A stretch of 64,000 nucleotides of DNA from a virus. The notes beneath the pieces are model-generated. The model ran no database searches and was not told where the DNA came from. It saw only the letters and a program-made list of their open reading frames with translations. Below are positions 3,609 to 34,795 of this stretch, in pieces; within the stretch, counting starts at the first letter, position 1, and each line of letters starts with the position of its first letter. Position numbers and translations under genes: made by a program. The stretch covers positions 248,001 to 312,000 of IMG/VR virus record IMGVR_UViG_3300014494_000005, one strand, 5' to 3'.

Positions 3609-3657
3609 TGATATACATTTGCAAAAGAAATTAATAATTAAAATAAAAAATAAAGCA

Positions 3658-3750
3658 ATGTTTACATTTGGAACATATTATTACGGTAAAAAATCTTATA
3701 AGAAACAACTTATGAGAATCGGGAATGCTGTGTTCAAAATACAATGCTAA
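3658..3750 (+). CDS. Leader peptide 1 (Tyr/Lys-rich, tRNA operon attenuator)
   Basis: A 30-codon ORF with the start context AAAGCAATG that recurs throughout the phage. Residues 7-16 read YYYGKKSYKK; in total 4 Tyr and 5 Lys of 30. It lies between a phage promoter and a terminator, immediately before tRNA-Lys(TTT), tRNA-Tyr(GTA) and tRNA-Lys(CTT). Codons 20-22 (AGA ATC GGG) carry the arm GAATCGGG (3716-3723), which can pair exactly with CCCGATTC (3778-3785), part of the 5' arm of the terminator. I infer trp-type attenuation: a ribosome stalled at Tyr/Lys codons leaves the arm free, preventing the terminator and allowing the tRNAs to be transcribed. Confidence 0.65.
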   Translation: MFTFGTYYYGKKSYKKQLMRIGNAVFKIQC

Positions 3751-3803
3751 TAAATTACAAAGTATAAATAACATAAACCCGATTCGAAAGTTTCGGGTTT
3801 TTT
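3716..3803 (+). promoter_or_regulatory. Attenuator 1: antiterminator arm and terminator
   Basis: Terminator: AAACCCGA (3775-3782) with TCGGGTTT (3793-3800), then a T run. Alternative pairing: GAATCGGG (3716-3723, inside leader ORF 1) with CCCGATTC (3778-3785). The two helices are mutually exclusive because both use CCCGA. The tRNA block begins 12 bases after the T run. Confidence 0.65.
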
Positions 3804-3814
3804 GCTTTTAATAT

Positions 3815-3888
3815 GCATTCGTGGCAGAGTGGTTTATGCCCCCGCCCTTTAAGCGGTGACCACGTGGGTCCGACTCCCACCGAATGCA
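3815..3888 (+). tRNA. tRNA-Lys(TTT)
   Basis: Acceptor GCATTCG/CGAATGC; anticodon stem CCGC/GCGG; seven-base loop CCTTTAA; T arm GTGGG TCCGACT CCCAC. Anticodon TTT by structure, but position 33 is C instead of the near-universal U. CCA is not encoded. Confidence 0.8.
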
Positions 3889-3897
3889 CAAAATTTT

Positions 3898-3976
3898 GGA
3901 AGTACTGAACATAGGTGGGTTCAAGACTCTGTAAAAGTCCCGCTTCGGCATGGGGGTTCAACTCCCTCTACTTCCA
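3898..3976 (+). tRNA. tRNA-Tyr(GTA)
   Basis: Acceptor GGAAGTA/TACTTCC; D stem GAAC/GTTC; anticodon loop CTGTAAA; long variable arm CGCTTCGGCAT as in bacterial tRNA-Tyr; T arm GGGGG TTCAACT CCCTC. CCA is not encoded. Confidence 0.9.
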
Positions 3977-3981
3977 CAACA

Positions 3982-4134
3982 TGGGTAGTCTTTCGGTGTG
4001 ATGAACCGAGCCGTCAAGAAAGACGGTGCTCGAAAGGATAAGGTTAAAAAATGAAGAAATGCTACTGTACATAATAGATGCGCATAAAAGTACTAGAAAG
4101 GTCTTCGATTGGTTTGAATCCCCTACTACCCACA
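3982..4134 (+). ncRNA. Oversized tRNA-like element
   Basis: Acceptor-like ends GGGTAGT (5') and ACTACCC (3') enclose about 150 bases. Inside: hairpin TCGGT GTGATGA ACCGA, hairpin GCCGTC AAGAAA GACGGT, a weak hairpin around GTAC...GTAC, then GGTTTGAATCC resembling a poor T arm. No seven-base anticodon loop can be assigned. It sits between tRNA-Tyr and tRNA-Lys(CTT) in one transcript. It could be a tRNA with an insertion/intron, a decayed tRNA, or a regulatory RNA. Confidence 0.45.
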
Positions 4135-4138
4135 AATT

Positions 4139-4213
4139 GACTTCGTATCCGTAGAGGCATTCGGACTTGACCCTTAATCAAGGATACGTGGGTTCGACCC
4201 CCACCGGAGTCAC
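4139..4213 (+). tRNA. tRNA-Lys(CTT)
   Basis: Acceptor GACTTCG/CGGAGTC; D stem TCCG/CGGA; anticodon stem CTTGA/TCAAG around loop CCCTTAA; T arm GTGGG TTCGACC CCCAC. Anticodon CTT by structure; position 33 is C, as in the first Lys tRNA. Confidence 0.8.
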
Positions 4214-4214
4214 A

Positions 4215-4246
4215 AAACCTGTTAGAATTAACTAGCAGGTTTTTTT
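4215..4246 (+). terminator. Terminator of first tRNA block
   Basis: AAACCTGTTAG pairs with CTAGCAGGTTT and is followed by T7. Confidence 0.85.
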
Positions 4247-4370: not shown

Positions 4371-5180
4371 ATGGCAAACAAAAAAATTAAAAAAACAACT
4401 ACAACCACCGTCACTGAAGAAATAGTTGACGTTCCTACAAATGAAAAAACTCAAATTATCTGTATACTTGACCAAAGTGGTTCAATGTCAACGATTATAT
4501 CGGATAGTATTGGCGGATTTAATACTTTTTTAAGAAAACAAAAAGAATTAAAAGATGAGGCAACAATAACAGTTGCATTGTTTGATGATAAATACAATTT
4601 ACTTTATGACAATATTGACATAAAGAAAGCTGAAGAACTTACAAGTGAAATTTGGATTCCAAGAGGAATGACTGCTCTTTATGATGCTATTGGTAAAACA
4701 ATTAATAATGTTAGAAGTACACATACACGTCTCGGCAACGAAAAACCTTCAAAAGTTTTAGTTTGTATTGTAACTGATGGTGAAGAAAACCATAGCCGTG
4801 AATACAAACTTGATGACATTAAAACTCTTATAAAGAAATGTGAAAAAGATGATTGGAATTTTATTTATTTGGCTGCAAATCAAGATGCATTTTCTGTTGG
4901 TCAATCATTTGGTGTAAGTGCTGGAAATACTTTTACTTATATGGCAACAACTGATGGAGTAGTTAGTATGTCAAATACATTGAATAATGCATCAGTATCA
5001 TATAGAAGTATGAACACAACAGATGGTAATTTTCAAAAATTGTCAAAATCTTTAATTACTACTGATGATGAAAATAAAAAAGATGTTAAAGATAATGGGA
5101 ATTTGAGTTTATTCAGCACTGCAGATGGAAATTCAGTAACATCAACCAATACTTTAATAGTTACTAAAGACGATAAATAA
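4371..5180 (+). CDS. VWA-domain protein
   Basis: 269 residues with a von Willebrand factor A fold from about residue 25 to 200. The metal-ion-dependent adhesion site is visible: DQSGSMS near residue 32, the conserved Thr in RGMTALYDA, and the late Asp in IVTDGEENHS. Resembles TerY/YfbK-like cytoplasmic VWA proteins, which use a bound Mg2+ for protein-protein contacts. No signal peptide. A second VWA gene lies beyond the RNR gene, so the two flank RNR. Function in the phage is unknown. Confidence 0.85.
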   Translation: MANKKIKKTTTTTVTEEIVDVPTNEKTQIICILDQSGSMSTIISDSIGGFNTFLRKQKELKDEATITVALFDDKYNLLYDNIDIKKAEELTSEIWIPRGMTALYDAIGKTINNVRSTHTRLGNEKPSKVLVCIVTDGEENHSREYKLDDIKTLIKKCEKDDWNFIYLAANQDAFSVGQSFGVSAGNTFTYMATTDGVVSMSNTLNNASVSYRSMNTTDGNFQKLSKSLITTDDENKKDVKDNGNLSLFSTADGNSVTSTNTLIVTKDDK

Positions 5181-5369: not shown

Positions 5370-7919
5370 ATGATAGAAAAATCTCAAAAAGTTTATTCCA
5401 AACAAGAAGTAGAAAAAGCAACATTAAATTATTTTAAAAATGATGAACTTGCAACAGATGTATGGATACGAAAATATTGTTTAAAAGATGAAAAAAATTA
5501 TTATGAATTAACTCCAGATGATATGCATCGAAGAATTGCAAAAGAACTCGCAAGAATCGAAGCAAATTATCCAAATCCAATCAATGAAGACCAGATTTAT
5601 GAAACATTAAAAAATTTTCAAAGAATTGTTCCTCAAGGAAGTCCAATGTCAGGTATTGGTAATAATTTTCAAGTTGTATCATTATCAAATTGTTTTGTAA
5701 TTGGCAATAAAGGTGATTCTGATTCTTATGGTGGTATTTTAAAAATTGACCAAGAACAGGTTCAACTTATGAAGCGTAGGGGTGGTGTTGGACACGATTT
5801 ATCTTATATTCGACCAGCAGGTAGTCCTGTAAAAAATTCGGCAATTACTTCAACTGGTATTGTTCCTTTCATGGAAAGATATTCCAATAGTACAAGAGAA
5901 GTAGCACAAGATGGTCGCAGGGGTGCATTAATGTTAAGTGTTTCAATAAAACATCCTGATGCCGAAAAATTTATTGATGCAAAATTAACACAAGGAAAAA
6001 TTACTGGTGCAAATATTTCTGTAAAATTAACAGATGATTTTATGAATGCTGCAATACAAGGAACAACATTTATTCAACAATATCCAATTGATAATCAATC
6101 AAAATATACTAATGAAATTGATGCACAAAAACTTTGGAAAAAAATAATATATAATGCTTGGAAATCTGCTGAACCCGGAATTCTTTTTTGGGATACAGTA
6201 ATTCGTGAAAGTATTCCTGATTGTTATTCGGATTTAGGATTTAAAACTGTAAGTACAAATCCTTGTGGTGAAATACCATTATGTCCAAATGATAGTTGTC
6301 GATTATTAGCAATTAATTTATATGGTTATGTTATAAATCCATTTACAAAAGAAGCACAATTTAATTGGGAATTATTTAAACAAGATGTAATTATTGCACA
6401 AAGATATATGGATGATATCATAGATTTGGAACTTGAAAAAATTGATGCCATTTTAGAAAAAATAAAATCTGACCCAGAAGACGAATTTATTAAATTATAT
6501 GAAATAAATCTTTGGAAAGAAATTAAAGAAATGACATTTAAAGGTCGTAGAACTGGATTAGGTGTTACTGCGGAAGGTGACATGCTTGCAGCATTAGGGC
6601 TTATATATGGTACAGATACTGCAACAAATTTTAGCGAAGAAGTACATGAAACATTAAAATTAGATGCATATCGTTCATCGATAATAATGGCTAAAGAACG
6701 TGGTTGTTTTCCAATATTCTCCGCAAATCTTGAAGTGAATAATCCTTTCATTCTCCGCATAAAAAATGAAGACTTGCAACTATATGAAGATATGATTACT
6801 TATGGTCGAAGAAATATTGCTTTACTTACAATCGCACCAACAGGAACAGTATCTCTGATGACACAAACTACTTCAGGTATTGAATGTTGTTACTTACCTG
6901 TGTATATGAGAAGACGAAAAATTAATCCACAAGAAAAAGATGTTCGTATTGATTTTGTTGATAATGAAGGAATTGCATGGATGGAATATCCAGTCTTTCA
7001 TCATAAATTTGAGATATGGTTGAAAGTAAATGGATATGATGTTAATGTTGTTAAATCAATGAATAAAGAACAAATCGATGAAATTATTAAACAATCACCA
7101 TATTATAAAGCAACATCAAATGATGTTGATTGGGTTAAAAAAGTCGAAATGCAAGGTAAAATTCAAAAACAAGTAGACCATTCCATTAGTGTTACTGTAA
7201 ATCTTCCGGAAAATGTAACAGAAGAAATTGTTGCTAATGTATATGAAACTGGTTGGCGTAGTGGTTGTAAAGGAATAACTGTTTATCGTGATAAAAGTCG
7301 TAATGGGGTGTTAGTTAGTATCGAAGAAAAAAAAGAAGAATTTCATGACATACATGCAATAAAACGTCCCAAAAGATTAAAAGCCGAAATTCATCGTTTT
7401 CAAAATAATTTGGAAAAATGGATTGCAGTTGTTGGCATAAAAGATAATAGACCTTACGAAATATTCACAGGTAAATTCGAAAATGGATTAAGCAATCTCC
7501 CCAATACGGTAAAAGATTGTGAAGTGGTTAAAAATATTATTGATGGAATTGATATTGATGGAAAACCAAGTAAAATTAAAAGGTATGATATTGAATATAT
7601 TGATTTAAATGGTGTAAAACAAACACATATAGGTTTAAATCATGCATTTAATCCCGAATTTTGGAACTATGCTAAACTAATTTCTGGTATAATGCGACAT
7701 GGAATGCCAATTATTAAACAATTTGAATTAGTTGATTCACTTAATTTTAAAGAAGATTATATAAACACTTGGAAAAACGGTGTTGCACGTATTATAAAAA
7801 GATATGTTAAAGATGGTGAAAAAAGTAAAGGCAATTGTCCGGAATGTGGTGGAACTGATTTTGTATTTGCAGAAGGTTGTATTCGTTGTGTTAAATGCTC
7901 TTGGTCAAAATGTAGTTAA
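5370..7919 (+). CDS. nrdJ: Ribonucleotide reductase, class II (adenosylcobalamin-dependent)
   Basis: 849 residues. Makes deoxyribonucleotides using coenzyme B12 and needs no oxygen. Visible: LSNCFVIG and GGVGHDLSYIRPAGS in the N-terminal barrel half, QDGRRGALMLSVSIKHPDAEKF typical of the vitamin B12-dependent enzyme, the active-site loop NPCGEIPLCPNDSC holding catalytic Asn, Cys and Glu, and APTGTVSLMTQTTSGIE. The C-terminus is a zinc ribbon with a CPECGG...CIRCVKC pattern ending in CS, as in bacterial NrdJ. No small subunit is needed. The protein depends on host B12; Bacteroidota are strong B12 importers, which fits the inferred host. Confidence 0.95.
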   Translation: MIEKSQKVYSKQEVEKATLNYFKNDELATDVWIRKYCLKDEKNYYELTPDDMHRRIAKELARIEANYPNPINEDQIYETLKNFQRIVPQGSPMSGIGNNFQVVSLSNCFVIGNKGDSDSYGGILKIDQEQVQLMKRRGGVGHDLSYIRPAGSPVKNSAITSTGIVPFMERYSNSTREVAQDGRRGALMLSVSIKHPDAEKFIDAKLTQGKITGANISVKLTDDFMNAAIQGTTFIQQYPIDNQSKYTNEIDAQKLWKKIIYNAWKSAEPGILFWDTVIRESIPDCYSDLGFKTVSTNPCGEIPLCPNDSCRLLAINLYGYVINPFTKEAQFNWELFKQDVIIAQRYMDDIIDLELEKIDAILEKIKSDPEDEFIKLYEINLWKEIKEMTFKGRRTGLGVTAEGDMLAALGLIYGTDTATNFSEEVHETLKLDAYRSSIIMAKERGCFPIFSANLEVNNPFILRIKNEDLQLYEDMITYGRRNIALLTIAPTGTVSLMTQTTSGIECCYLPVYMRRRKINPQEKDVRIDFVDNEGIAWMEYPVFHHKFEIWLKVNGYDVNVVKSMNKEQIDEIIKQSPYYKATSNDVDWVKKVEMQGKIQKQVDHSISVTVNLPENVTEEIVANVYETGWRSGCKGITVYRDKSRNGVLVSIEEKKEEFHDIHAIKRPKRLKAEIHRFQNNLEKWIAVVGIKDNRPYEIFTGKFENGLSNLPNTVKDCEVVKNIIDGIDIDGKPSKIKRYDIEYIDLNGVKQTHIGLNHAFNPEFWNYAKLISGIMRHGMPIIKQFELVDSLNFKEDYINTWKNGVARIIKRYVKDGEKSKGNCPECGGTDFVFAEGCIRCVKCSWSKCS

Positions 7920-8094: not shown

Positions 8095-10383
8095 ATGAAA
8101 AAAAATGTAAAATTTGATGAAAACTATTATCTAACTACTCAAGAAGTTAATAGTAATGCAACTATAGAGGTTGCAAAAAAAACAAACCACATTTTCGTGG
8201 TTGACGTGTCTGGCTCAATGTCAAATGAACTCCCTCTAATCAGAACACAATTAAAAAACAAACTTTCTAATTTAATGAAGGAAGGTGATACTATTTCAAT
8301 TGTTTGGTTTTCGGGTAGTAGAGATGCTGGAATACTTAAAGAAGAAGTTGAAGTAAAGTCACTTAAAACCCTCAGTGATTTGAATGATGCTATCGATAAA
8401 TGGCTTCGTCCTGTTGGATTAACTGCTTTCTTAAAACCATTAGAATTGGTTAAGGAATTAATTGGTAGAATTAAGAAAAACAGACCTAACGGTGCATTTT
8501 CAATGATTTTTCTTACAGATGGGTGTAATAATGACTGCTCTTGGAATGAGGTTATTAAAACACTTAAATCACTTGAAAATGACATTGCATCTTCAACATT
8601 TGTTGAATATGGATTTTATGCAGATTCACGTGCATTAACTCAAATGGCATCAATGCTTGGTGGTGAAAAAATTAGTTGTGATGGTTTTATTGATTTTGAA
8701 CCAGTTTTTGACAATAAAATTTCTTCAAGTATTAAAGGTGGAAAGAAAATTGTTGTTGATATTACTGATAAATATCTTTATGATTTTGCATTTTCTGTTT
8801 CAAATGGAAGTGTATTGTTATATAATATTGTGGACAGTAAAATCATGGTTGGTTCAGATGTAAAAGAAATTTATTTCTTTAGTTCTAAAGCAATTGGTAA
8901 TGAAGAATCTGCATTAATTAATAATATTGTTCCTCAAGAACAAGTAGCTAAATTATATGCTGCAATTTATGTACTTGCCGATAAACTCATGAATGATGAT
9001 GCCGAAAAAGTTTTCTATGCTCTTGGTGACCAACATTATTATCAAATATTAGCTAATGCATTTGGAAAACAAAAACTTAATGCATTTAAAACTGCAATTA
9101 AAGAATGCGTTGCTGATGTATCAAAAAGATTTCCTAATGGTATTAGTGCTATTCAGAAAGTTTCTGATAATGCATACTGCTTGATGAATCTTATTGAAGA
9201 TTTAGGTAATACTGAAGGTTGTTTATTCTACCCAAATCATTCGGATTTTCAATATAACAGAATTGGTAGAAAAAAGATTTCTGCAGCAACTGTTCTAACA
9301 GAATCAGAAAAAAAACAACTTTCTGAAGCAAAAAATGTTGAAGATGCCAACAAACTTCTTAAAGAATTTGAAGAAAAGAAAGTTGATGTGAAATTTGTTA
9401 ATAGTAATCCTGACAGGGGTTATCCATTAACTGATTTGGTTTGGAATGAATCACGTGCAAATTTATCAGTTCGTATCTATATTGAAGGCGAAGCATTACT
9501 TCCAAAAAATAAATTTAATGTAGATAAAGTCAGTTCTTTCAAATACAATACTTTTACTCTCATAAAAGATGGTATTGTAAATGTTGATAAACTTCCAGTA
9601 AGTTATAGTAATGAATTACTTACTCTTTTGGCAGAAAATAATGTTAAATATAATTTATGGAGAAGTCCAGTACCTGTACCTCCAAATGAAGATACTAAAA
9701 TCATTATTGACCTTACTTCATTACCTCTTATTAATAGAGGTATGGTAAAATCAGTTTCTGCAACCAGTCTTGCAAAACAGGAATGGGAACTTATAAAATT
9801 ACAGGGTGATAAAAAAACATATGATTATTTTAGAAAATCATTATTTCCTAAAACCAGTAAATCATTTGTTGAATTGCTTGGTCAGGAAGCTACAGATTGG
9901 CTTAAAGAAGTAGGAATAACCGATTTTAATGGTTTTGCTCCAAAAGTAACATCTGCAGAAGCAACAGATTTTTACATGTCAGTTAATCTTGAAACCAAAA
10001 TTAAAGGTTTATCCTCACTTCCAAAAGTTGAAGATGTTATTGCTAAAATTAAAGCAAAAAAAGAATTAAAGTTGAATGAATGGGTTATGGCTGATGCTAT
10101 AAAGAAATACATGTCACAAACTGAATCTGAAATGTACTTATCTCTATCAGAAGAACAACAGAAAGGTGTGTTAAAAACTTATCTTGAAACTAAGTCAGGT
10201 ATTCTTAATAAACAAAGAAGAAAAATTTTACAAGAAATCGCAGAGATTAAATTTTCTCTCATCCTCTCAAAAAGATGGTTCGTTGAATTCAAAAGTTTTG
10301 ATGAAAATAAACTTGCTTTGAATATTGATGGTCAAGATTTGGATTTTGTTTTTGAATTAAGTGAAAAAGAAGAAAAGATTTAA
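8095..10383 (+). CDS. Large VWA-domain protein
   Basis: 762 residues. The N-terminal third is a VWA domain: MIDAS FVVDVSGSMSNE (residues 32-43), the Thr in VGLTAFLKP, and FLTDGCNND. The remaining 500 residues have no recognised domain; they are Lys/Glu-rich with several helical stretches. No membrane segment. Paired with the smaller VWA protein around the RNR gene. VWA plus a long tail is seen in chaperone-like and stress (Ter) systems, but no partner ATPase is present here, so the role stays open. Confidence 0.85.
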   Translation: MKKNVKFDENYYLTTQEVNSNATIEVAKKTNHIFVVDVSGSMSNELPLIRTQLKNKLSNLMKEGDTISIVWFSGSRDAGILKEEVEVKSLKTLSDLNDAIDKWLRPVGLTAFLKPLELVKELIGRIKKNRPNGAFSMIFLTDGCNNDCSWNEVIKTLKSLENDIASSTFVEYGFYADSRALTQMASMLGGEKISCDGFIDFEPVFDNKISSSIKGGKKIVVDITDKYLYDFAFSVSNGSVLLYNIVDSKIMVGSDVKEIYFFSSKAIGNEESALINNIVPQEQVAKLYAAIYVLADKLMNDDAEKVFYALGDQHYYQILANAFGKQKLNAFKTAIKECVADVSKRFPNGISAIQKVSDNAYCLMNLIEDLGNTEGCLFYPNHSDFQYNRIGRKKISAATVLTESEKKQLSEAKNVEDANKLLKEFEEKKVDVKFVNSNPDRGYPLTDLVWNESRANLSVRIYIEGEALLPKNKFNVDKVSSFKYNTFTLIKDGIVNVDKLPVSYSNELLTLLAENNVKYNLWRSPVPVPPNEDTKIIIDLTSLPLINRGMVKSVSATSLAKQEWELIKLQGDKKTYDYFRKSLFPKTSKSFVELLGQEATDWLKEVGITDFNGFAPKVTSAEATDFYMSVNLETKIKGLSSLPKVEDVIAKIKAKKELKLNEWVMADAIKKYMSQTESEMYLSLSEEQQKGVLKTYLETKSGILNKQRRKILQEIAEIKFSLILSKRWFVEFKSFDENKLALNIDGQDLDFVFELSEKEEKI

Positions 10384-10457: not shown

Positions 10458-10499
10458 TTTGTATATATTGTAACATTTTATATCTTTGCAACGTATTTA
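10458..10499 (+). promoter_or_regulatory. Overlapping host-type and phage-type promoters
   Basis: Host-type: TTTG (10458-10461), 19 bases, TATCTTTG (10481-10488). Phage-type: GTAACA (10470-10475), 18 bases, TATTTA (10494-10499). Both read into leader peptide 2 and the main tRNA array. Confidence 0.65.
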
Positions 10500-10526
10500 G
10501 ATAAAAAGGATTTTATAATAATAAAA

Positions 10527-10655
10527 ATGATGAAAACTTTAACGACAAATATTTTTAGTTCTATATCGACCACAACAAGTCGCATAGGAAGAACTATATT
10601 CTGTTCAAATTTTATTGGCAGAAATAGTAACGTGTCGGGGATTTTGTTTTCATAA
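10527..10655 (+). CDS. Leader peptide 2 (Thr/Ser/Asn/Ile-rich, tRNA operon attenuator)
   Basis: A 42-codon ORF: 8 Ser, 7 Thr, 6 Ile, 4 Asn, 4 Phe, 3 Gly, 2 Met, 1 Cys = 35 of 42 residues. The tRNAs downstream are Thr, Thr, Cys, Asn, Ile, Ser, Ser, Phe, Gly, Met, Asn: the same eight amino acids. Tyr, Asp, Glu, Gln, Ala, His, Pro and Trp are absent from both. Codons 36-38 (GTG TCG GGG) carry the arm GTGTCGGG (10632-10639), exactly complementary to CCCGACAC (10685-10692) at the 5' side of the following terminator. Same design as leader 1; I infer attenuation that senses several charged tRNAs. Confidence 0.65.
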   Translation: MMKTLTTNIFSSISTTTSRIGRTIFCSNFIGRNSNVSGILFS

Positions 10656-10713
10656 TGAAGTTAAACAAAAAGAATCAAACCAAACCCGACACAGAAATGA
10701 GTCGGGTTTTTTT
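10632..10713 (+). promoter_or_regulatory. Attenuator 2: antiterminator arm and terminator
   Basis: Terminator AAACCCGAC (10682-10690) / GTCGGGTTT (10701-10709) plus T run. Competing helix GTGTCGGG (10632-10639) / CCCGACAC (10685-10692). tRNA-Thr starts 19 bases after the T run. Confidence 0.65.
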
Positions 10714-10731
10714 ATGCTCTTTTCATAATGT

Positions 10732-10802
10732 GCCGAAATAGTTCAATGGTAGAACATCTGCTCCGTAACCAGATAATGTTGGTTCGATTCCAGTTTTCGG
10801 CT
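10732..10802 (+). tRNA. tRNA-Thr(CGT), probable
   Basis: Acceptor GCCGAAA/TTTCGGC; D stem GTTC/GAAC; anticodon region ATCTG-CTCCGTAAC-CAGAT. If the C-C pair is counted in the stem, the loop is TCCGTAA with anticodon CGT and C at position 33. T arm GTTGG TTCGATT CCAGT. Confidence 0.7.
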
Positions 10803-10807
10803 CAATT

Positions 10808-10878
10808 GCCAATATAGTTCAGTGGTAGAACATTTGTTTGGTATACAAGGAACATCAGTTCGATTCTTATTATTGGCT
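10808..10878 (+). tRNA. tRNA-Thr(GGT)
   Basis: Acceptor GCCAATA/TATTGGC; D stem GTTC/GAAC; anticodon stem TTTGT/ACAAG with loop TTGGTAT. The T arm has one mismatch. Confidence 0.85.
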
Positions 10879-10913
10879 CAAAAAATAATGTTCTTTGACA
10901 TGTTGGAATTATT

Positions 10914-10988
10914 GTACGTGTGGTCGAGTGGTCAATGGCAACGGTCTGCAAAACCGTAAAATCGCTGGTTCAAATCCAGCCACGTACT
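10914..10988 (+). tRNA. tRNA-Cys(GCA)
   Basis: Acceptor GTACGTG/CACGTAC; anticodon stem ACGGT/ACCGT with loop CTGCAAA; T arm GCTGG TTCAAAT CCAGC. Confidence 0.9.
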
Positions 10989-10995
10989 CAATATT

Positions 10996-11068
10996 GGACT
11001 GTAAGCTGACATGGTGTAGCGGTTGTCTGTTAAACAAAGGGTCGTGGGTTCAAATCCCTCACAGTCCG
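10996..11068 (+). tRNA. tRNA-Asn(GTT)
   Basis: Acceptor GGACTGT/ACAGTCC; anticodon loop CTGTTAA on stem TTGT/ACAA; T loop TTCAAAT. Confidence 0.88.
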
Positions 11069-11133
11069 CAAAAGTATACTATATATCTTATTTTTTGTAT
11101 ATCTTAAGTATTTATAAACAAATTATAAATATT

Positions 11134-11544
11134 ATGAGAGGTAGAAAAATTAAAAAAATATGCAAAAATTGTAATAATGAATTTGAAGTACTTATGATTA
11201 AAGTAAGACAAAATAAAGGAATTTTTTGTAGTACTAATTGTTATCACGAATTTTTAAGAAAAAATAGTAATGGATATATTTTTGATACTAAATTAGCAAA
11301 TGTTTTTTATCAAAAAAAATCTAAATATGGTCTAACTAAAGAAGAATATTTAAAATTATTTGCAAACCAAAATAATAAATGTGCAATATGTGAAATATCA
11401 TTTGATAAAGTTAGAGCATGTGTTGACCATTCGCATAAAAATGGTGTAGTTAGAGGATTATTATGCGATAAATGTAATAAAGGTCTCGGTTCATTTAACG
11501 ACAACATTCCGTTGCTCAAAAAAGCAATTGAATATTTAAAATAA
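11134..11544 (+). CDS. HNH homing endonuclease, endonuclease VII type
   Basis: 136 residues. N-terminal zinc pair CKNCNNEF...FCSTNC (about 9-36); C-terminal recombination-endonuclease-VII-like HNH: CAICEISF, then CVDHSHKNGVVRGLLCDKCNKGLG, then an amphipathic helix ending NIPLLKKAIEYLK. The catalytic His pair is in DHSH. Start at ATG 11134; the frame upstream is tRNA sequence. It lies in the tRNA array between tRNA-Asn and tRNA-Ile, the typical place for a mobile intergenic (free-standing) homing endonuclease. Two close relatives lie at 53835 and 59756. Confidence 0.88.
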   Translation: MRGRKIKKICKNCNNEFEVLMIKVRQNKGIFCSTNCYHEFLRKNSNGYIFDTKLANVFYQKKSKYGLTKEEYLKLFANQNNKCAICEISFDKVRACVDHSHKNGVVRGLLCDKCNKGLGSFNDNIPLLKKAIEYLK

Positions 11545-11545
11545 T

Positions 11546-11618
11546 TGGAATATAACACAGTGGTTAGTGTGCTTTCCTGATAAGAAAGAGGTCGGTGGTT
11601 CAAATCCACCTATTCCAA
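11546..11618 (+). tRNA. tRNA-Ile(GAT)
   Basis: Acceptor TGGAATA/TATTCCA; D stem ACAC/GTGT; anticodon stem CTTTC/GAAAG with loop CTGATAA; T arm GGTGG TTCAAAT CCACC. It begins right after the HNH stop codon. Confidence 0.9.
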
Positions 11619-11628
11619 CTAAATTTCT

Positions 11629-11717
11629 GGAGAAATGGATGAGTGGATTAAATCAGTAACCTGCTAAGTTACCGTGCGGGGAAACCCGCACCGAGAGTTC
11701 GAATCTCTCTTTCTCCG
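11629..11717 (+). tRNA. tRNA-Ser(GCT)
   Basis: Acceptor GGAGAAA/TTTCTCC; anticodon stem GTAAC/GTTAC with loop CTGCTAA; long variable arm GTGCGGG/CCCGCAC, as expected for Ser. Confidence 0.92.
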
Positions 11718-11760
11718 CTTTTATTTATAATATTAATAATAATGTTTAAATATTTTTATG

Positions 11761-11845
11761 GTAGAATGGCAGAGTGGTCTATTGCACTTGTCCTGAAAAC
11801 AAGCGAGGGTAATTCCTCCGTGGGTCCAAATCCTACTTCTACCGC
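11761..11845 (+). tRNA. tRNA-Ser(TGA)
   Basis: Acceptor GGTAGAA/TTCTACC; anticodon stem CTTGT/ACAAG with loop CCTGAAA (anticodon TGA, C33); long variable arm GAGG...CCTC fits Ser. Confidence 0.88.
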
Positions 11846-11846
11846 A

Positions 11847-12093
11847 CTATGAACTGTATTGCAATTCAGTTCATAACTCACATAATACTATAAACAATTA
11901 TGTTTTGCAGAATATGATTGATGTAAAATGTGTGAATTCCAGTTGCATAAGAAGCTGTTTCTAATGTTCAGTGAAATGTTGTATTGTATTCGTGGTTGGC
12001 AACATGAAATTTAAGAAAATGTTTTGTGAGACATTCATATGCTTGTAATAGTATAGGAAAAACGTAAGTAAAAGGCTTACACTGGAACATTAT
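11847..12093 (+). ncRNA. Structured RNA candidate inside tRNA array
   Basis: About 245 bases without a usable ORF between tRNA-Ser and tRNA-Phe. Visible pairings: ATGAACTG/CAGTTCAT hairpin at the 5' end; ATACTAT with ATAGTAT about 160 bases apart; AATGTTCAGTG with CACTGGAACATT (one bulge); local hairpin GTAAG/CTTAC. The nested long-range helices suggest a folded RNA cotranscribed with the tRNAs. Class unknown. Confidence 0.4.
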
Positions 12094-12168
12094 GGAGATG
12101 TAGCTGAGTTGGTATAGCGGTGGTTTGAAGCACCACGACAATCACTGGTTCGATTCCAGTCTTCTCCA
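12094..12168 (+). tRNA. tRNA-Phe(GAA)
   Basis: Acceptor GGAGATG/CTTCTCC (one mismatch); anticodon stem GTGGT/ACCAC with loop TTGAAGC; T arm ACTGG TTCGATT CCAGT. Confidence 0.88.
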
Positions 12169-12178
12169 CAATATAATT

Positions 12179-12250
12179 GCGAAATAGGTGTTGATGGTTG
12201 CACAGGAGTCTTCCAAACTTCGGGAGTAGGTTCGAATCCTATATTTCGCT
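12179..12250 (+). tRNA. tRNA-Gly(TCC)
   Basis: Acceptor GCGAAAT/ATTTCGC; anticodon stem GGAGT/ACTTC with loop CTTCCAA; T loop TTCGAAT. Confidence 0.85.
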
Positions 12251-12257
12251 CCAAAAT

Positions 12258-12330
12258 TGACCCGTATCTTAATTGGTAGAGAAATTATCTCATAAGTAAT
12301 AGGTTGAAGGTTCGAATCCTTCCGGGTCAA
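12258..12330 (+). tRNA. tRNA-Met(CAT)
   Basis: Acceptor TGACCCG/CGGGTCA fully paired, so probably an elongator (or a lysidine-type Ile) rather than an initiator. Anticodon stem ATTAT/GTAAT, loop CTCATAA; T arm GAAGG TTCGAAT CCTTC. Confidence 0.85.
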
Positions 12331-12387
12331 CGAAATAAAAACATTTTTAATTACAAATAATTTTATTATATTTGTAAAAAATATTTT

Positions 12388-12612
12388 ATGAAAAATAAAA
12401 AAGAAAAACTTATAATTGATTTAGAAAATTTTAATGATAAAAACATTAAATTAATAAAAAAAATAAAAAATTCTAATTTTACAAATAATCACAAATATAA
12501 ACAATGTTATTTCGAATCTAATAAAATTATTGGAAATACAACAAATTGTTGTTTACCTTGCGATATTTATTGTTTCAATAGAATAAAAAATAATGCATCA
12601 TTAGCTCAGTGA
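12388..12612 (+). CDS. Small Cys-containing unknown protein ending inside a tRNA gene
   Basis: 74 residues, Lys/Asn-rich, with a late Cys cluster (NCCLPCDIYC, 53-62). The last residues and the TGA stop are encoded by the first 18 bases of tRNA-Asn that follows, so gene and tRNA overlap. TATATTTG at 12367-12374 resembles a host -7 box. Possibly the tRNA was inserted into, or recombined onto, the end of the gene. Confidence 0.5.
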   Translation: MKNKKEKLIIDLENFNDKNIKLIKKIKNSNFTNNHKYKQCYFESNKIIGNTTNCCLPCDIYCFNRIKNNASLAQ

Positions 12613-12666
12613 TAGAGCGTCACGCCGTTAACGTGGGGGTCGGTGGTTTGAATCCATCATGGTGCG
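12595..12666 (+). tRNA. tRNA-Asn(GTT), second copy
   Basis: Acceptor GCATCAT/ATGGTGC with one G-T pair; D stem GCTC/GAGC; anticodon stem TCACG/CGTGG with loop CCGTTAA (C33); T loop TTTGAAT. The sequence differs strongly from the first tRNA-Asn. Confidence 0.78.
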
Positions 12667-12737
12667 CTAATTTAAATTAAATATGTATTGTAATTCTAAA
12701 AATTTTAACTAAATTTGAAATCTAATAATTTTTAAAC

Positions 12738-13778: not shown

Positions 13779-13862
13779 GCCTTCTTCGTATAGTGGTCGA
13801 TTACACCGGATTTGTAACCCGGTTCTTAACAAGACACGTTGGTTCGAATCCAACAGAAGGCT
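13779..13862 (+). tRNA. tRNA-Thr(TGT), probable
   Basis: Acceptor GCCTTCT/AGAAGGC; anticodon region ACCGG-ATTTGTAAC-CCGGT, giving loop TTTGTAA if an A-C pair closes it. The variable region is unusually long (CTTAACAAG hairpin) for tRNA-Thr. T arm GTTGG TTCGAAT CCAAC. Confidence 0.65.
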
Positions 13863-13894
13863 CTAAATGATTGTAACGCAATAAGTTATAAATT

Positions 13895-13967
13895 GCCCCT
13901 ATAGTATAATGGATAAGTGCATAGGTCCTCTAAACCTACAGTCGTGGTTCGATTCCACGTAGGGGTA
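13895..13967 (+). tRNA. tRNA-Arg(TCT)
   Basis: Acceptor GCCCCTA/TAGGGGT; anticodon stem TAGGT/ACCTA perfect, loop CCTCTAA, so anticodon TCT with C33. T arm CGTGG TTCGATT CCACG. Confidence 0.85.
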
Positions 13968-14057
13968 CAAAATTTAATTATTTTATAACGCATAATTAAT
14001 AAATTTTAATTAATATTGTAAAATAATTTATATACATTTAAATAATAACATAAAAAA

Positions 14058-14598: not shown

Positions 14599-14745
14599 AT
14601 GAATACAGTAATTTGTCCAAAATGTAAAAATGTTATTATTGTATCAAAAGATAAAGATTTTGTTATTTGTTGTGGTGAAGTAATTTATGAAATAAATAAT
14701 GCACCTGTAGTTCAATTGGATTCGAGCATCACTTTCCTAAAGTGA
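14599..14745 (+). CDS. Mini zinc-finger protein ending inside tRNA-Arg
   Basis: 48 codons; VICPKCKNV and a second VICCGEV give a Cys4-type zinc knuckle. The last 15 codons and the TGA stop lie inside tRNA-Arg(CCT) (14701-14775). Starts four bases after the decarboxylase gene. Second case here of a small ORF running into a tRNA. Confidence 0.45.
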   Translation: MNTVICPKCKNVIIVSKDKDFVICCGEVIYEINNAPVVQLDSSITFLK

Positions 14746-14775
14746 TTGTTATGAGTTCGAATCTCATCAGGTGTA
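14701..14775 (+). tRNA. tRNA-Arg(CCT)
   Basis: Acceptor GCACCTG/CAGGTGT; D stem GTTC/GAGC; anticodon stem TCACT/AGTGA with loop TTCCTAA; T arm ATGAG TTCGAAT CTCAT. Confidence 0.9.
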
Positions 14776-14787
14776 CTAAAATAGTAT

Positions 14788-15194: not shown

Positions 15195-15266
15195 ACCTCT
15201 GTAGTTCAACGGATAGAACGGAAGTCCTCGAAACTTAGAATACGGGTTCAAATCCTGTCAGGGGTA
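15195..15266 (+). tRNA. tRNA-Arg(TCG)
   Basis: Acceptor ACCTCTG/CAGGGGT; D stem GTTC/GAAC; anticodon stem AAGT/ACTT with loop CCTCGAA (C33); T loop TTCAAAT. Confidence 0.8.
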
Positions 15267-15278
15267 CTAAATCAATAT

Positions 15279-15394: not shown

Positions 15395-16060
15395 ATGATA
15401 AAATATGAAGAAAATAAATTACGTAAAATTGTAAATGAATGTTCATTATATAGAGAAGTATTATTAAAATTTGAAAGAAATGATTCAGGTGCTGCATATA
15501 AAACACTACATAGAAGAATAAAAGAATGGAAAATAGATACATCGCATTTTTTAAGTCAAAGTGAAATAATGAAGAATAAAATAAGCAATGGCTTATATCC
15601 AAAAAAAACTAATAATGAATTGTTTTCCATTAATAACATTACAAGGCATGTAATAAAACGTAGAATAATTGAAGAAAATTTAATTGAATATAAATGTATT
15701 TTTTGTGGTCAAAATGAATGGTGGTATGGTAAAAAAATATCCTTAATTTTAGACCACATTAATGGAATACATAATGATAATAGATTAGAAAATTTAAGAT
15801 TTTTATGTCCAAATTGTAATGCTACATTAGAAACGCATTGTAAAGGTAGTAAAGGTTTAATACCAAAAATAAAAAAAGAACGAAAATATTCGCCTCATAT
15901 TAATCAAAGAAAAGTTAAAGAAAGACCGTCATATGAACAACTTCAACGAGAAATTAAAAAATTAGGTTATGTTGGAACTGGAAAAAAATATGACGTAAGT
16001 GATAATGCAATAAGAAGATGGATAAAATTATACGAAAAAATTAAAATAAACCAAATTTAA
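15395..16060 (+). CDS. HNH endonuclease with helix-turn-helix ends
   Basis: 221 residues. The central HNH core has CIFCGQNEWW (about 101-110), LILDHINGIHNDNRLENLRFLCPNCNA with the His-Asn motif, and a final Cys pair. The N-terminal part (IVNECSLYREVLLKFER...) and the C-terminal LGYVGTGKKYDVSDNAIRRWIKLY both look like DNA-binding helices; this arrangement is common in phage HNH homing endonucleases. Follows the tRNA-Arg pair. Confidence 0.85.
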   Translation: MIKYEENKLRKIVNECSLYREVLLKFERNDSGAAYKTLHRRIKEWKIDTSHFLSQSEIMKNKISNGLYPKKTNNELFSINNITRHVIKRRIIEENLIEYKCIFCGQNEWWYGKKISLILDHINGIHNDNRLENLRFLCPNCNATLETHCKGSKGLIPKIKKERKYSPHINQRKVKERPSYEQLQREIKKLGYVGTGKKYDVSDNAIRRWIKLYEKIKINQI

Positions 16061-20385: not shown

Positions 20386-20386
20386 T

Positions 20387-20462
20387 GATTCTGTAGCTGA
20401 GTTGGTTATAGCGATGTTCTCTAAAAACATGTCATTCGTGGGTTCGAATCCCACCGGAATCA
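20387..20462 (+). tRNA. Amber suppressor tRNA (anticodon CTA)
   Basis: Acceptor GATTCTG/CGGAATC; D arm GCTG...AGC; anticodon stem ATGTT/AACAT perfect, loop CTCTAAA with T33, anticodon CTA; T arm GTGGG TTCGAAT CCCAC perfect. No shift of the stem gives another anticodon. It would read UAG. The amino acid it carries cannot be told from sequence alone; there is no long variable arm, so Ser, Leu and T4-type Tyr identity are less likely. The PTH2 gene about 1 kb downstream has an in-frame TAG. Confidence 0.88.
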
Positions 20463-20562
20463 TAAAAAATAAATATTAAAATAGTTGCAGATTCAAAAAT
20501 TATGATTAATTTTGTTCCCTCAAAGTATTTATATTTTTAATAATACTGTTTACTATATTAAT

Positions 20563-34696: not shown

Positions 34697-34795
34697 TTGT
34701 GGTGTTGGTAGGAATTGAACCCACGTAAGTAATGCTGTACTTCGTTTGCACTTCACAGACAGAATGCAGAACCAACATCTGCAACAACACCAAAT
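34697..34795 (-). ncRNA. tRNA-like element, long-variable-arm type
   Basis: Minus strand: acceptor GGTGTTG/CAACACC, D arm GCAG-loop-CTGC, T arm GTGGG TTCAATT CCTAC, variable hairpin AAGTA/TACTT, 3' ACA. The anticodon arm cannot be folded with a seven-base loop, so no anticodon can be named. It starts right after a phage promoter and seems to be the first product of a leftward transcript. A tRNA with an insertion or a tRNA mimic. Confidence 0.5.

Follow-up and report, generated by a model that had tools for sequence, protein, structure and literature searches.

Leader peptides that mirror the tRNA genes downstream: candidate ribosome-mediated attenuators at the tRNA arrays of huge phages

The tRNA genes of the phage represented by the viral record IMGVR_UViG_3300014494_000005 (G000; 348,923 bp) are arranged in arrays, each of which stands behind a short leader open reading frame (ORF) and an intrinsic terminator. 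The window analysed here is a stretch of 64,000 nucleotides of this record (G000:248001-312000). Judged from sequence features, each tRNA array is very probably preceded by a ribosome-mediated transcription attenuator, and the cluster is probably turned on by ribosomes that stall because its tRNAs are lacking. The features visible in the sequences are a correspondence between leader and array, mutually exclusive RNA arms, a distinctive placement of the matched codons, a signature suggestive of translation and a promoter box. The record contains four such leader-attenuator-array elements, two inside the window and two outside it. The second of these, which was the starting point of the analysis, is laid out as follows:

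10481-10488, plus strand: -7 promoter box TATCTTTG (TAnnTTTG, Bacteroidota-type), upstream of leader 2
10527-10655, plus strand: leader ORF 2, 42 amino acids; control codons Ser, Thr, Ile, Asn, Phe, Cys, Gly, Met, Arg
10632-10639, plus strand: arm 2 (5' arm of the predicted antiterminator), GTGTCGGG, within leader ORF 2
10682-10713, plus strand: intrinsic terminator (z -3.5), with arm 3 CCCGACAC at 10685-10692, arm 4 GTCGGG at 10701-10706 and a T tract at 10707-10713
10732-10803, plus strand: tRNA-Thr(CGU), first of array 2 (ARAGORN, Infernal)
10808-10879, plus strand: tRNA-Thr(GGU) (ARAGORN, Infernal)
10914-10989, plus strand: tRNA-Cys(GCA) (ARAGORN, Infernal)
10996-11068, plus strand: tRNA-Asn(GUU) (Infernal, 51.1 bits; missed by ARAGORN)
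11546-11619, plus strand: tRNA-Ile(GAU) (ARAGORN, Infernal)
11629-11718, plus strand: tRNA-Ser(GCU) (ARAGORN, Infernal)
11760-11845, plus strand: tRNA-Ser(UGA) (ARAGORN, Infernal)
12094-12169, plus strand: tRNA-Phe(GAA) (ARAGORN, Infernal)
12179-12253, plus strand: tRNA-Gly(UCC) (ARAGORN, Infernal)
12258-12331, plus strand: tRNA-Met(CAU) (ARAGORN, Infernal)
12595-12667, plus strand: tRNA-Asn(GUU) (ARAGORN, Infernal)
13779-13863, plus strand: tRNA-Thr(UGU), probable continuation of array 2 (ARAGORN, Infernal)
13895-13968, plus strand: tRNA-Arg(UCU), beyond 12666 (ARAGORN, Infernal)
14701-14776, plus strand: tRNA-Arg(CCU), beyond 12666 (ARAGORN, Infernal)
15195-15267, plus strand: tRNA-Arg(UCG), array 2 ending at 15267 (ARAGORN, Infernal)

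Leader 2 translates as MMKTLTTNIFSSISTTTSRIGRTIFCSNFIGRNSNVSGILFS and consists of 8 Ser, 7 Thr, 6 Ile, 4 Asn, 4 Phe, 3 Gly, 2 Met and 1 Cys, i.e. 35 of its 42 residues, just as an initial annotation made from the sequence had counted. That annotation also listed the downstream tRNAs as Thr, Thr, Cys, Asn, Ile, Ser, Ser, Phe, Gly, Met and Asn, and matched an arm at 10632-10639 to one at 10685-10692 in the terminator; ARAGORN and Infernal between them return the same list, with the array running past 12666, and arm 2 GTGTCGGG is the exact complement of the terminator 5' arm CCCGACAC. Because array 2 continues with Arg tRNAs, the 3 Arg codons of the leader also match, which brings the correspondence with the full array to 38 of 42 codons. 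Without the start codon 90% of codons match the array; a comparison set of 17,170 short ORFs, drawn from the loci analysed, reaches 48±14% (p=0.0015). An Endonuclease VII family gene (PF02945; window 11134-11544) lies inside array 2 and an HNH-like gene (window 15395-16060) just past it; both are likely to be mobile endonuclease genes.

The remaining three elements of the phage repeat this design, with arm 2 lying within the leader ORF and pairing with the 5' arm of the terminator in all four. Their leaders are made of codons for Lys/Tyr (leader 1), Ser/Thr/Ile/Asn/Phe/Cys/Gly/Met/Arg (leader 2), Asp/Glu/Val/Leu/Ala/Trp (leader 3) and Pro/His/Gln (leader 4), each preceding an array for the same amino acids, and jointly they account for all 20 with hardly any overlap. 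Element 1, the other one in the window, comprises:

3614-3621, plus strand: -7 promoter box TACATTTG, upstream of leader 1
3658-3750, plus strand: leader ORF 1, MFTFGTYYYGKKSYKKQLMRIGNAVFKIQC; control codons Tyr, Lys
3716-3723, plus strand: arm 2 of attenuator 1, GAATCGGG
3775-3803, plus strand: terminator 1, with arm 3 CCCGATTC (3778-3785), arm 4 TCGGG and a T tract
3815-3889, plus strand: tRNA-Lys(UUU), array 1
3898-3977, plus strand: tRNA-Tyr(GUA), array 1
4139-4213, plus strand: tRNA-Lys(CUU), array 1
4214-4243, plus strand: terminator immediately 3' of the last tRNA of array 1

Between tRNA-Tyr and the second tRNA-Lys of array 1, a stretch with tRNA-like ends (TGGGTAGTC...CCTACTACCCA) and a long insert (window 3982-4134) is possibly an intron-bearing or a degenerate tRNA. 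Element 3, located by a DNA match to the promoter of leader 2, has the leader MMKKVLDILVSEMAVVLLWADAEDTLYSVG before Asp, Glu, Val, Leu, Leu, Leu and Trp tRNAs called by ARAGORN; Infernal adds a tRNA read as Glu(UUC) (L003:1188-1271), and an Ala(UGC) tRNA was recognized by eye, with many relatives having an ARAGORN-called Ala(UGC). Element 4, recovered from the fetched remaining tRNA regions, has the leader MKNLIHIQPQPQQHPQMSEWGNYA before Pro, His and Gln. The leaders of class 3 possess a conserved ACCTCCTTTCT motif between arm 2 and arm 3 (alignment A1; L003:934-945), which resembles the anti-Shine-Dalgarno tail of 16S rRNA, as well as a small inverted repeat, GTAATA..TATTAC, across the stop codon. 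In class 4, arm 2 of the leaders also holds the start of an additional short ORF read in a different frame (MGKLCLNFSKEVLG; L113:4229-4273), which recurs in several relatives and may be a by-product of class similarity.

Relatives were obtained as 79 viral loci by anchoring on the neighbouring ribonucleotide reductase gene, with additional stretches of the same records, the sequence covered being that around tRNAs. A mechanical scan for a terminator with an exact upstream complement, a short ATG ORF and a downstream tRNA, using no amino-acid information, returned 64 distinct leaders. Those of the main clade fall into four homologous classes with conserved sequences. Divergent lineages group their tRNAs into other arrays and have leaders that fit these: in L104, MKNLIKITRITRKRRTTSSNGFIV stands ahead of Thr/Arg/Ile and MKLVNLNNNFCNLNSNSISGSNFFGSCHKKSGYSLDITVS ahead of Asn/Phe/Ile/Ser/Gly/Leu/Cys, and in G013, MKNFRTNTATVATTTAPVGGRPVRLRSDVLYLI stands ahead of Pro/Gly/Val/Thr/Arg. 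As a prospective test, 28 loci were fetched by leader sequence alone, and all 28 have downstream tRNAs of the predicted amino acids.

The same correspondence extends to distant huge phages. Since direct leader-peptide searches of an annotated phage collection gave no match, these cases were reached by way of the neighbouring ribonucleotide reductase and the positions of tRNAs. The public huge phage LR745206 (634,780 bp) contributes five more leaders fitting their arrays: PVNPQPQDQDP before Pro/Asp/Gln, HKNFSKSHKWF before His/Phe/Trp/Lys, SKSSSRSSS before Arg/Ser, SYESYYEE before Glu/Tyr and TTMNLNMTMNLTLNVVNITLCNIR before Asn/Arg/Leu/Val/Ile/Thr/Met. In LR756500 (462,018 bp) LSTYPLGQAQTLGTPPITG precedes Ala/Leu/Pro/Tyr/Gln/Gly/Thr and VHIIHIWEHLLEEV precedes His/Glu/Val/Trp/Leu, and in Prevotella phage Lak-A1 GMHPVCGMVHMFPCGGGRPM precedes His/Pro/Arg/Gly/Cys/Met, with a second, broad leader before a broad array. 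The strict scan found no match in the stretches of LR745206 and LR756500 near the reductase, and their leaders emerged by inspection and relaxed thresholds on tRNA clusters; hence, the choice of ORF in these two records involved judgement. A scan of bacterial genomes with the sequence of leader 1 recovered no relative.

Several kinds of test reject chance composition as the source of the correspondence, be it by comparison with other ORFs, by relabelling, by swapping or by shuffling. Individually compared with the 17,170 short ORFs, the leaders mostly give p values of 0.0007-0.05, with the weaker values mainly reflecting truncated arrays. When the amino acids are relabelled, the four leaders of the window phage show 72 of 122 matches against a mean of 32.0 (sd 7.2) and a maximum of 65 in 100,000 relabellings (p<=1e-5). 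Ten phage records give p<=1e-5 apiece in the same test, and in every one of them the actual pairing of leaders with arrays also beats all permutations; the values for LR745206, LR756500 and Lak-A1 are 5e-6, 1.5e-4 and 3.7e-4, respectively. The correspondence is best described as a presence rule, under which nearly every amino acid with a tRNA in the array (269/271) is found in the leader; random ORFs of the same length reach a mean of 72% and a maximum of 80%, and shuffled leaders 69%. The two shortfalls are Gln in L106 and leader 1 of L067, downstream of which ARAGORN calls only a Leu tRNA, the stretch holding an apparent missed tRNA-Tyr. Homologous sequences within a class are not independent, and this kinship is addressed by the regrouped lineages in the relabelling test and in a set of 22 leaders from eight phage genomes, in which presence is 109/109 and the mean z is 2.80 versus 1.34 for the best of 200,000 array permutations. 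Moreover, the leaders use 42 synonymous codons where 34.6 are expected from phage codon usage (p=0.003), as if individual isoacceptors were being sampled. The initial annotation had thus rightly thought chance unlikely: the permutation tests it called for are significant in all phage records examined, homologous leaders do track their tRNA sets, regrouped lineages included, and the same correlation is seen in other huge phages (LR745206, LR756500, Lak-A1). Its general rule that a leader samples the tRNAs it controls is sharpened to the presence of almost every amino acid of the array.

The surrounding architecture is that expected of an attenuator. A TAnnTTTG box, the consensus for which was taken from PMC9723704, occurs within 110 nt upstream of 57 of the 64 leaders as against 94 of 1188 random windows. 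An arm 2 of 7 or more nt combined with a short ORF is found at 62 of the 84 terminators that open arrays and at 0 of the 224 located far from tRNAs; the T4 and T5 tRNA regions, used as negative controls, likewise contained no such attenuator. The span from arm 2 to arm 3 has a median of 46 nt, and the competing structures are balanced (median -14.6 kcal/mol for the antiterminator versus -15.7 for the terminator). Complementarity is kept across 40 distinct arm 2/arm 3 pairs, and between the close relatives L113 and L145 an arm change is compensated in arms 2, 3 and 4. The most telling observation was an unsought one, namely the profile of matched codons: their share is 79-80% from codon -8 to codon -4 relative to arm 2, drops to 27% at -3 to -1 (24% expected) and is 28% inside the arm itself. 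Arm 2 would be just clear of a ribosome whose A site lies about 12 nt upstream, whereas a nearer one would mask it. Folding the leaders of the window phage with a masked ribosome footprint gives the same picture, in that pairing of arm 2 with arm 3 stays high for stalls at the control codons. A ribosome placed at the stop would cover arm 2 in leaders 2, 3 and 4 and leave it free in leader 1. For every one of the four classes, frame 0 has a lower ratio of nonsynonymous to synonymous changes (N/S) than either frame 1 or frame 2, a signature that may reflect translation of the leaders. The attenuator proposed in the initial annotation gains further support from the absence of the arm from the control terminators, the end of the matched codons about four codons before it and the 40 complementary pairs. 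Rfam covariance models gave no T-box match (conserved T-box, specifier loop, Stem I); among known RNA families considered at the attenuators, none but tRNA reaches the Rfam cut-off.

From these observations we infer a sequence of translation, stalling, termination, readthrough and benefit. RNA polymerase would start at the Bacteroidota-type promoter and a ribosome would translate the leader of 20-45 codons, composed of codons for the amino acids of the downstream tRNAs. With charged tRNAs plentiful, it would move on and cover arm 2, which lies close to the 3' end of the ORF; this arm could then not pair with arm 3, the 3:4 terminator would fold and the array would stay off. Scarcity of any one of the sampled charged tRNAs would stall the ribosome upstream of arm 2, allowing the 2:3 antiterminator to form and RNA polymerase to read into the tRNA genes. 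An array would thus be turned on by shortage and off by sufficiency of its own tRNAs, amounting to a multi-input OR gate with negative feedback. The likely benefit is a supply of tRNAs when those of the host run short, e.g. upon cleavage by antiphage tRNases or under heavy translational demand by the phage. Taken together, the switches of huge Bacteroidota phages could constitute a genome-wide tRNA census that reads all 20 amino acids and releases exactly the failing operon, adaptively countering host defences that cleave or deplete tRNAs, a proposal that we regard as evenly balanced.

Certain observations do not sit comfortably with this mechanism. Leaders of class 1 (Lys/Tyr) have their stop codon 24 nt past arm 2, and a ribosome waiting there would leave arm 2 uncovered; the off state of this class would therefore depend on the timing of the moving ribosome. 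A search for an arm 1 that could form a 1:2 hairpin found none that is consistent (best duplex with arm 2 of -6.3 versus -5.2 kcal/mol in shuffled sequences), and hence the default would be on if the leader were not translated. The arrays extend over several kb with intervening ORFs, and a single transcript over each is only putative. Arms are weak in some distant records (L156, leader B of Lak), and a few leaders have uncertain start codons. The arm of leader 2 in L068 is spurious.

The alternatives differ chiefly in what the ribosome is taken to report. It is possible, if rather doubtful, that the same switch answers to amino-acid starvation or low charging and not to loss of tRNA molecules. 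In attenuation the ribosome senses only charged tRNA, and low charging would act identically; nevertheless, the regulated tRNAs would not ease an amino-acid shortage, and the leaders divide amino acids by the tRNA genes present and not by biosynthetic family (e.g. Pro/His/Gln, or His/Phe/Trp/Lys in LR745206). Because the product is tRNA, we infer that the signal is tRNA shortage, which fits the view that phage tRNAs offset depletion of host tRNAs (PMC10264068, PMC11555353). A general sensor of translation capacity or timing, in which readthrough follows from any slowing of ribosomes or from an absence of translation and composition is secondary, appears unlikely: it would agree with the lack of arm 1, by which an untranslated leader should give the on state, but under it the leader composition need not follow each array, nor need the matched codons end four codons before arm 2. 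Still less probable is the opposite polarity, with efficient translation giving readthrough and stalling giving termination. The ribosome at the stop codon of leader 1, which leaves arm 2 unmasked, would suit it; however, the control codons end where a stalled ribosome begins to mask arm 2, which is sensible only if stalling has to leave this arm free, and arm 3 stays accessible because the stop codon is at least 19 nt away from it in all 64 leaders. An ordinary gene for a small protein, or an ORF that stands before a tRNA array by chance, is hardly credible despite the conservation of leader sequences in the main clade: the leaders have no detectable relatives in the phage collection, yet other lineages keep the composition rule; the arrangement occurs at 0 of 224 control terminators; and relabelling gives p<=1e-5.

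Several further features lie around the tRNA-array attenuators. The ribonucleotide reductase gene (5370-7919) sits between the two attenuated arrays of the window and is flanked by genes for VWA-domain proteins at 4371-5180 (below the Pfam cut-off) and 8095-10383. Outside the window, a phage-encoded tmRNA (Rfam RF00023, 68.6 bits; L113:10011-10373 = G000:244010-244372) lies between tRNA arrays; being a ribosome-rescue RNA, it may be of relevance to the adjoining stall-based switches. A tRNA with a CUA anticodon (Pyl by ARAGORN) at window 20386-20463, also present in L066, L104, L116, L121, L128 and Lak-A1 (L169), is a potential amber suppressor; TAG ends only 3 of the 56 long ORFs of the window. 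The scan found no leader attenuator at the isolated tRNAs His (window 34699-34791, minus strand) and Leu, Leu (L113 10963-11445), which would serve as unregulated controls in the same genome.

The reasons for and timing of phage tRNA expression have been debated for more than 50 years (PMC10264068). The huge-phage study, which reports as many as 67 tRNAs in a genome and gives Bacteroidetes as hosts of the largest phages, leaves attenuation unmentioned (PMC7162821), and our literature search, with most subscription papers outside its scope, found no published precedent. If the proposed mechanism is correct, a leader that lists its tRNAs would reveal the trigger of the phage, i.e. shortage of those charged tRNAs, and the idea of a response to depletion becomes directly testable with simple reporters. 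The elements could also provide a self-annotating signature for metagenomic tRNA operons and natural multi-input translation sensors for Bacteroidota. Attenuation, familiar from textbook accounts of amino-acid operons, would thereby reach tRNA genes and phages as well.

Comparison with known systems helps to place the elements. Leader-peptide attenuation candidates have been reported upstream of amino-acid operons in Flavobacterium psychrophilum (PMC9723704), which makes the mechanism plausible in this host phylum; the two share phylum, type of promoter box and leader-peptide attenuation, but the Flavobacterium candidates concern chromosomal amino-acid biosynthesis genes. The tRNA clusters of T4 and T5, and tRNAs countering tRNA-cleaving defences (PMC10264068, PMC11555353), are similarly phage arrays that possibly replace depleted host tRNAs, yet the T4 and T5 regions lack such an attenuator, and T5-type phages depend on a strong promoter (PMC11555353). 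T-box riboswitches, too, respond to tRNA status and control a terminator, but bind uncharged tRNA directly, whereas in the phage elements the sensing is putatively done by a translated ORF. The pheST leader of Escherichia coli, a case of attenuation of a tRNA-synthetase operon, also governs a component of tRNA charging, but it senses one amino acid, is chromosomal and has a protein-coding target. Parallels also exist with the E. coli trp, his, thr, phe, leu and ilv attenuators, in a short leader rich in regulatory codons, competing 2:3 and 3:4 pairings and stalling that is expected to turn the operon on; among these, ilv and thr respond to more than a single amino acid. The protector hairpin formed by arm 1 is present in classical cases such as trp, and we do not take it as required throughout the family. 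The phage elements differ from them in targeting tRNA genes and not biosynthesis, in sampling 2-13 amino acids per leader, in being phage-encoded, in having no consistent arm 1 and in a leader composition that follows the gene content of the array. Thus, in sum, they appear to share most of the tested defining features of ribosome-mediated transcription attenuation, and their novelty lies in the target (tRNA arrays), in the carrier (huge phages), in the sampling of multiple amino acids and in the way in which leader content follows array content.

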